IMG/VR virus record: IMGVR_UViG_3300009093_000035
Span: 1 to 64,000 of that record
Direction: 5' to 3' (one strand)
Source of the DNA: a virus
Length of the DNA: 64,000 bases
Shown: positions 4,066 through 4,753 of the stretch, in pieces
Layout: each line of letters begins with the position of its first letter
How positions within the stretch are numbered: position 1 is the stretch's first letter
Translations under genes and position numbers: made by a program
Notes under the pieces: model-generated
Databases searched by the model: none
The model's input: only the letters and a program-made list of their open reading frames with translations
Told to the model about the DNA's origin: nothing

Positions 4066-4753
4066 ATGGAAAGCGTGATCGTAGAGATTCGAGCTGGAGA
4101 AGGCGGAGATGACGCGAAGCTTCTGGTGAAGGAGCAGTTCGTTGTGTATGTGCGCCTGATCGAGCGGAGGGGTCTTTGACTGCTTCATCGTAGACGAGCG
4201 CCCCGGCTTCCTCTCGTTCCAAGTGAGCGGGAAGGTGGCACGCTCGACCTTCTCTCAGGAATCCGGAGGGCACCGCTGGCAGCGCGTACCTCCGAACGAG
4301 AAGAGGGGACGAGTCCAGACCTCGACCGTCACTGTAGCGGTCCTCGACGAACCGAAGGAGTCGGAGCTTCGGATCGAGGAGAGAGACATCGAGTGGCAGA
4401 CCTGTCGCGGTAGCGGAGCCGGTGGTCAGCACCGGAACGTCACCAACTCGGCCGTCCAGATGACCCACCTCCCTACCGGGATCCGAGTCCGCGTCGAGAA
4501 CGAGCGCTCCCAGCACCAGAACCGAGAGACAGCCCTCCGGGTCCTACGAGCCCGCGTACACGAAGCGCGGACGTCGGCGGCTACCTCGGCTCGGGAAGAC
4601 TCCCGACGGGCGCAGGTGGGCTCGGGGATGCGAGGGGACAAGGTCCGGACGATCCGCGCTCAGGACGGCCAAGTCACGGACCACCGACCGAACGGCGGTC
4701 AGATCCGGTACAAGGACTACATCCGCGGGAACTGGGAAGGCCTTCTGAGATAA
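4066..4753 (+). CDS. Domain-1-less peptide chain release factor expressed through a +1 frameshift
   Basis: Two overlapping frames make one 228-residue class I release factor. Frame one (4066-4176, 37 aa; GGAGG at 4056-4060) gives the start of domain 2 ('VEIRAGEGGDDA'). It ends at CTT TGA C (4174-4180). A +1 slip at CTT continues from GAC at 4178 to TAA at 4753. The second part holds 'ESGGHRWQRV', the catalytic GGQ (about residues 119-121, in 'GSGAGGQHRN'), 'SQHQNRE' and the late 'VTDHR' motif. Peptidyl-tRNA hydrolysis is therefore plausible. Domain 1 is missing, as in PrfH-type factors. The body looks RF1-like, but the stop-reading PxT tripeptide is PPN (residues 75-77) and the nearby His of 'HTS' is Gln, so codon specificity is uncertain. 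Confidence 0.85.
4166..4180 (+). promoter_or_regulatory. prfB-type programmed +1 frameshift signal
   Basis: GGAGG (4166-4170), a 3-nt spacer GGT, then CTT TGA C. In bacterial prfB the signal is a Shine-Dalgarno-like AGGGGG, a 3-nt spacer, then CTT TGA C, and the ribosome slips forward when release factor 2 is scarce. Order and spacing match exactly here. The protein homology resumes in the +1 frame straight after the TGA, which supports use of the site. Confidence 0.85.

Follow-up and report, generated by a model that had tools for sequence, protein, structure and literature searches.

The window analyzed here, that is, the whole stretch of DNA under study, covers the first 64,000 bases of a viral record (G000) that is 248,579 bases long. 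On its plus strand, positions 4066-4753 hold the gene for an RF1-type release factor without domain 1, whose full-length product of 228 amino acids is obtained by way of the +1 frame. A Shine-Dalgarno sequence, GGAGG, can be read at 4056-4060, five nucleotides before the ATG start codon at 4066. From this ATG, frame 0 (4066-4179) runs through 37 codons, which by translation and RF1 homology constitute the start of domain 2, and ends at an embedded TGA (4177-4179) that is followed by a C. The codon directly before the stop is CTT (4174-4176), where the peptidyl-tRNA-Leu would be expected to re-pair on TTT, and an internal Shine-Dalgarno sequence, again GGAGG, is found three nucleotides before this slip codon at 4166-4170. 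The +1 frame (4178-4753) is then open to a TAA at 4751-4753 and provides the remainder of domain 2, domain 3 with its GGQ motif, and domain 4, matching the Pfam RF-1 family with 104.5 bits. Further upstream in the window, 2376-2897 and 1346-2161 correspond to a cytidylyltransferase-like (PPAT-type) gene and a DUF7227 gene.

Read together, these elements form the string GGAGG-GGT-CTT-TGA-C at 4166-4180, with the same spacing as AGGGGG-TAT-CTT-TGA-C in Escherichia coli prfB. Of the hallmarks of a prfB-type cassette, CTT immediately before the stop, an open continuation in the +1 frame and an internal Shine-Dalgarno sequence are present in the window gene. A preliminary description of this DNA had recognized both the frameshift signal and the homology continuing in the +1 frame, and both observations hold. 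The sequence GGRGGNNNCTTTGA occurs twice in the 64 kb versus 0.08 occurrences expected; the second match, at 44126, is antisense to a minus-strand open reading frame (ORF).

Kinship with RF1 and the reading head

By profile, by tree and by predicted structure, the body of the protein is RF1-like, and is neither that of RF2 nor that of PrfH. The RF1 profile gives 226 bits, the best score of all models, compared to 147.9 bits for RF2 and 89.3 bits for PrfH. All three scores lie under the curated cut-offs (400, 370 and 166.65 bits, respectively), as is expected for a protein without domain 1; the match to the PCRF profile begins only at position 101 of 194, which corresponds to the absence of that domain. 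An AlphaFold model, predicted from an alignment of relatives readable without the shift and bacterial RF1s, has a mean pLDDT of 90.4, is confident across the frameshift junction and superposes on ribosome-bound RF1 with a TM of 0.91. RF1 is also the best match in a fold search (E 2e-23), with PrfH at rank 49, and a quick tree groups the phage members into a single clade next to bacterial RF1 (SH-aLRT 98). The RF1-like body without domain 1 that had been proposed earlier is thus borne out by the profile matches, and the structure-based comparison suggested at the same time places the predicted fold closest to RF1.

The GGQ catalytic motif, invariant in the family, lies within the RF-1 domain at 4421-4429 and marks the protein as a class-I release factor. 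In RF1, the PxT motif selects A at the second stop position and goes with the reading of UAA and UAG. In the window protein, translation and alignment reveal Pro-Pro-Asn (4289-4297) where RF1 has the PxT anticodon-like loop and RF2 has SPF, Gln (4316-4318) where RF1 has His193, and Asp in place of Glu119. The retained GGQ and the first two of these replacements had been noted correctly beforehand. Relatives often keep the Thr and the His: the PxT position is Thr in 52 and Asn in 14 of the 72 frameshift genes described below (window gene included), and Gln often replaces His193 among the phage members. Both PxT and HTS elements are kept in most of the family and are absent from the E. coli PrfH stretch. 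A change that extends across the family is found at residue 16 of the reading-head tally, whose numbering runs one lower than that of the protein; this residue is Glu in 76/76 bacterial RF1s and Asp in 151/155 phage genes. A comparison of PPN versus PPT, or His versus Gln, with the identity of the embedded stop (TGA, TAG or TAA) found no association, in a test of low power. The idea that the altered reading-head residues explain a switch built on UGA has therefore lost ground, given the Thr in most frameshift genes and the lack of a link to stop type. Five frameshift members (L008, L009, L048, L059 and L102) have a shortened PxT loop, which suggests altered or lost codon reading in these proteins.

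Frameshift and in-frame-stop relatives

A first protein scan returned seven relatives on other viral contigs, all with a +1 shift in the same place, and a 485-kb phage from an annotated collection contributed a further relative with the same shift at the same position. Wider scans, with the family alignment and then in-frame-stop relatives as queries, yielded 153 non-identical, classifiable viral genes, of which 72 have a +1 shift (three of them on contigs binned into bacterial MAGs), 73 have in-frame stops without a shift and 8 are uninterrupted, counts that include related genes and do not represent independent events on what is a deep tree. In the deposited huge-phage genomes examined, the release factor gene carries in-frame stops in four and the +1 shift in one. 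The preliminary description had identified the cassette in one phage gene; it had overlooked how many relatives share the interruption, that TAG or TAA may stand in place of TGA, and that a second class has in-frame stops.

Within the frameshift class, the shift site falls inside domain 2, at codon 33-37, and the slip codon is CTT in 72/72 genes, compared to 15.9% of the other Leu codons in a set of 66 genes studied in detail. The embedded stop is more varied. TGA, as in the window gene, is found in 54 genes, and the other 18 of the 72 have TAG (15) or TAA (3). The identity of the stop switches about 13 times on the tree, and both TGA and TAG occur within one strongly supported group (L034 and L035 versus L048 and L059). 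A strong internal Shine-Dalgarno sequence is present in 57 of the 66 genes, with a mean duplex energy of -8.6 kcal/mol versus -4.4 kcal/mol for synonymous reshuffles of the same set. In 8 of the 66 it is weak or absent, and frameshift efficiency may therefore vary widely. Before the shift site and after it, substitutions concentrate at third codon positions, which argues that the N- and C-parts are both translated. Downstream of the frameshift sites, no extra RNA structure was found beyond the synonymous expectation (mean z -0.05).

In the 73 genes of the second class, one or more in-frame stops stand at or just after the place of the frameshift, and homology continues in the same frame. The stops occupy family positions 36-38, 43, 45-47 and 50-51, with two stops in some genes; positions 36-38 correspond to the Trp of the RF1 sequence RKGW and adjoin the frameshift site. 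Most are TGA, and TAG is found in L101, L369, L370 and L372. In the two larger groups, RNA structure over the first 48 nt past the stop exceeds that of synonymously reshuffled sequences (mean z about -1.4), an excess that is gone at 60 nt or more downstream. Apart from these viral genes, two members reside on megaplasmids of cultured bacteria, as unannotated RF1-like genes with an in-frame TGA: L443:1501-2199 on pBSY19_1 of Bosea sp. RAC05 and L444:1501-2205 on pRlX5 of Rhizobium leguminosarum TP16. Their presence in isolates removes the concern over metagenome assembly for this class. To account for genes with a shift, with an in-frame stop or with neither, the larger tree requires 11 changes, and several uninterrupted genes branch early.

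Reassignment of the stop codon in relatives with in-frame TGA was considered and rejected. In these genomes, the genes for ribonucleotide reductase and DNA polymerase form open frames when read with the standard code and, like the flanking genes, contain no in-frame TGA; the flanking ORFs use TGG normally (1,170 in 73,729 codons, ~1.6%) and 94/297 of them end in TGA. No suppressor tRNA with a UCA anticodon was found in the in-frame-stop genomes scanned for tRNAs, and a scan of the window's phage likewise yielded no suppressor tRNA. Selenocysteine was also rejected, as no tRNA-Sec was called in the scanned genomes and the position is Trp in RF1. Two phages, G016 (L067) and G020 (L100), have tRNA genes with a CUA (amber) anticodon, but the in-frame stop of their release factor gene is TGA. 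In another genome, a ribonucleotide reductase match extends over 3 kb with many stops inside (G058:114536-117580), possibly reflecting an intron-type insertion or an inserted element.

Stop bypass as a candidate control of termination

The +1 slippage of prfB, which competes with release, occurs when the ribosome has CUU in its P site and a stop codon in its A site, downstream of a Shine-Dalgarno sequence (PMC12421855, PMC5009743). Expression of the phage gene, which encodes an RF1-descended class-I factor without domain 1, is probably controlled in much the same manner. Ribosomes would slip from CUU to UUU at the embedded UGA with the aid of the internal Shine-Dalgarno sequence, in competition with termination at that stop. 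As a consequence of this competition, the full-length factor would be made mainly when release at the embedded stop, and hence host termination, is slow, and it would then supply release activity to the phage alongside the phage tmRNA and tRNAs. In relatives, the same would be accomplished through slippage at UAG or UAA, or by readthrough of an in-frame stop, under the same competition with termination. Whether the product closes the loop would depend on its own stop specificity. Sequence conservation suggests that the stop is bypassed; the rate of bypass would be expected to follow host release factor activity, and the product to release peptides.

The likeness to prfB is extensive and includes GGAGG or GGGGG, a spacer of 3 nt, CTT, the stop, often a C after it, the +1 shift and a class-I release factor as product. 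Differences are equally clear, as the phage factor has an RF1-derived body without domain 1, is carried by phages, and has its cassette at codon 37, within domain 2, where prfB has it near codon 26. Since the prfB cassette lies before domain 1, that of the phages very probably arose independently. Moreover, when bacterial prfB was surveyed, the stop was almost invariably TGA and in 0 of 8,164 genomes TAG; in prfA, a programmed frameshift was not found (PMC12421855). The occurrence of TAG and TAA in the phage cassette therefore argues against a simply relocated RF2 cassette. Bacterial prfA remains the closest relative in sequence and fold, sharing GGQ and, in most phage members, a PxT-type loop; it differs in having domain 1 and Glu at the reading-head position that is Asp across the phage family. 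A viral parallel is known from Mimivirus and Megavirus, where stops interrupting the release factor gene were shown experimentally to be bypassed by frameshift and readthrough, from which the authors inferred autoregulation (PMC3521657). That factor is of the eRF1 type (eukaryotic/archaeal) and combines both events in one gene, whereas the phage family is of the bacterial RF1 type, usually has one mechanism per gene, spans many lineages and is known from sequence. Atkins and colleagues stated in their review that no bacterial RF2 gene had been found with an in-frame stop for readthrough and that no RF1 gene was known with a UAG counterpart, the amoeba virus being the listed exception (PMC5009743). 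Huge phages are reported to encode RF1, RF2, tmRNA and SmpB, and the release factor passages of that paper make no mention of recoding (PMC7162821). A literature search, with subscription literature and preprints outside its scope, retrieved no paper describing phage release factors gated in this way.

What exactly the cassette senses can be considered in light of its variable stop. Sensing of host RF2 had been suggested at the outset; sensing of host termination does fit best, but with the 15 TAG and 3 TAA genes, RF2 alone cannot be what the family has in common as a target. A pure host sensor without feedback, in which a factor reading only UAA and UAG is placed behind a UGA cassette that reports low host RF2, is no more than a tentative possibility. 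The resemblance of the reading head to that of RF1, with PxT retained by most members, the predominance of TGA among the embedded stops and its use by 50/86 long ORFs of the window's phage are in its favor, but such a factor would give no relief of UGA shortage, and close relatives carry TAG, which would report RF1. This difficulty is general: slow termination at UGA, the stop most often embedded, would be eased by an RF1-type factor only if the specificity of that factor were relaxed. A closed autoregulatory loop, in which a factor of relaxed specificity itself reads the embedded stop, UGA included, and limits its own synthesis like RF2, is a real if tentative possibility. A factor that reads all three stops could use all three as sensors, and their interchange on the tree without matching reading-head changes would be explained; the Glu-to-Asp change and the frequent Gln at His193 are also consistent with it, although PxT, which selects A at the second position in RF1, is kept in most members.

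Other readings dispense with sensing or with codon recognition. The interruption could simply set a low, constant output, as frameshift and readthrough both reduce yield and excess release factor is harmful in bacteria, where RF2 overexpression is toxic (PMC12421855). This is unlikely, for a weak start site would suffice, and 145/153 genes have kept an A-site stop, with unrelated routes for its bypass. A rescue factor of the PrfH type (RtcB2-PrfH), freed from codon recognition and made upon ribosome stalling or damage, was another early suggestion and now seems improbable. PrfH shares the missing domain 1 and the retained GGQ, and the shortened loop of five frameshift genes would agree with such a role; the RF1 profile and fold, however, fit far better, most members keep recognition elements that differ from those of PrfH, and no RtcB partner is found in the window's phage (4/30 records have one). 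Finally, a sequencing indel, a pseudogene or stop codon reassignment in the genome, of concern because the assemblies are metagenomic, can be set aside with near certainty. The same shift and slip codon recur in all first-scan relatives and in 72 viral genes overall, with coding constraint on both sides, other genes of the relatives lack in-frame TGA and use TGG normally, and the in-frame-stop class is also present in the two isolate plasmids.

Taken together, it is concluded from these comparisons that large phages appear to have evolved a release factor whose synthesis depends on inefficient termination, in convergence with prfB and the Mimivirus factor. Speculatively, the family may represent a separate release factor lineage of relaxed stop specificity, in which bypass mechanisms, be it frameshifting at one of the three stops or readthrough at various positions, were repeatedly exchanged, such that phages both take over and self-limit termination in infected cells. 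The ~140 viral genes of the bacterial RF1 type with a frameshift or in-frame stop around one place in the protein indicate that release factor control via stop bypass recurs as a solution across phages, amoeba viruses and bacteria. They fill the RF1/UAG gap for bacterial-type factors and unite both mechanisms in one lineage. Annotations have probably overlooked many phage release factors or mislabeled them as truncated. Whether phages take over translation termination becomes directly testable by means of a short reporter and a protein of 228 residues.

The wider genome offers a setting for such a factor. The window's phage encodes 44 tRNAs and a tmRNA, no gene neighbors are conserved across the family and RtcB is lacking, so the release factor looks like part of the translation-support kit of large phages. 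The 248,579-base record gave no match to SmpB. Among the 44 tRNAs are five tRNA-Leu, including those with GAG and AAG anticodons. The tmRNA lies outside the window on the minus strand (G000:195183-195591, with L189) and has the tag ANDSSYDQLAQAA. Many genomes of relatives likewise have a tmRNA scoring over the cut-off; in one of them, G005 (L006), the tmRNA (84992-85343) directly adjoins the release factor gene (85402-85725) on the same strand.
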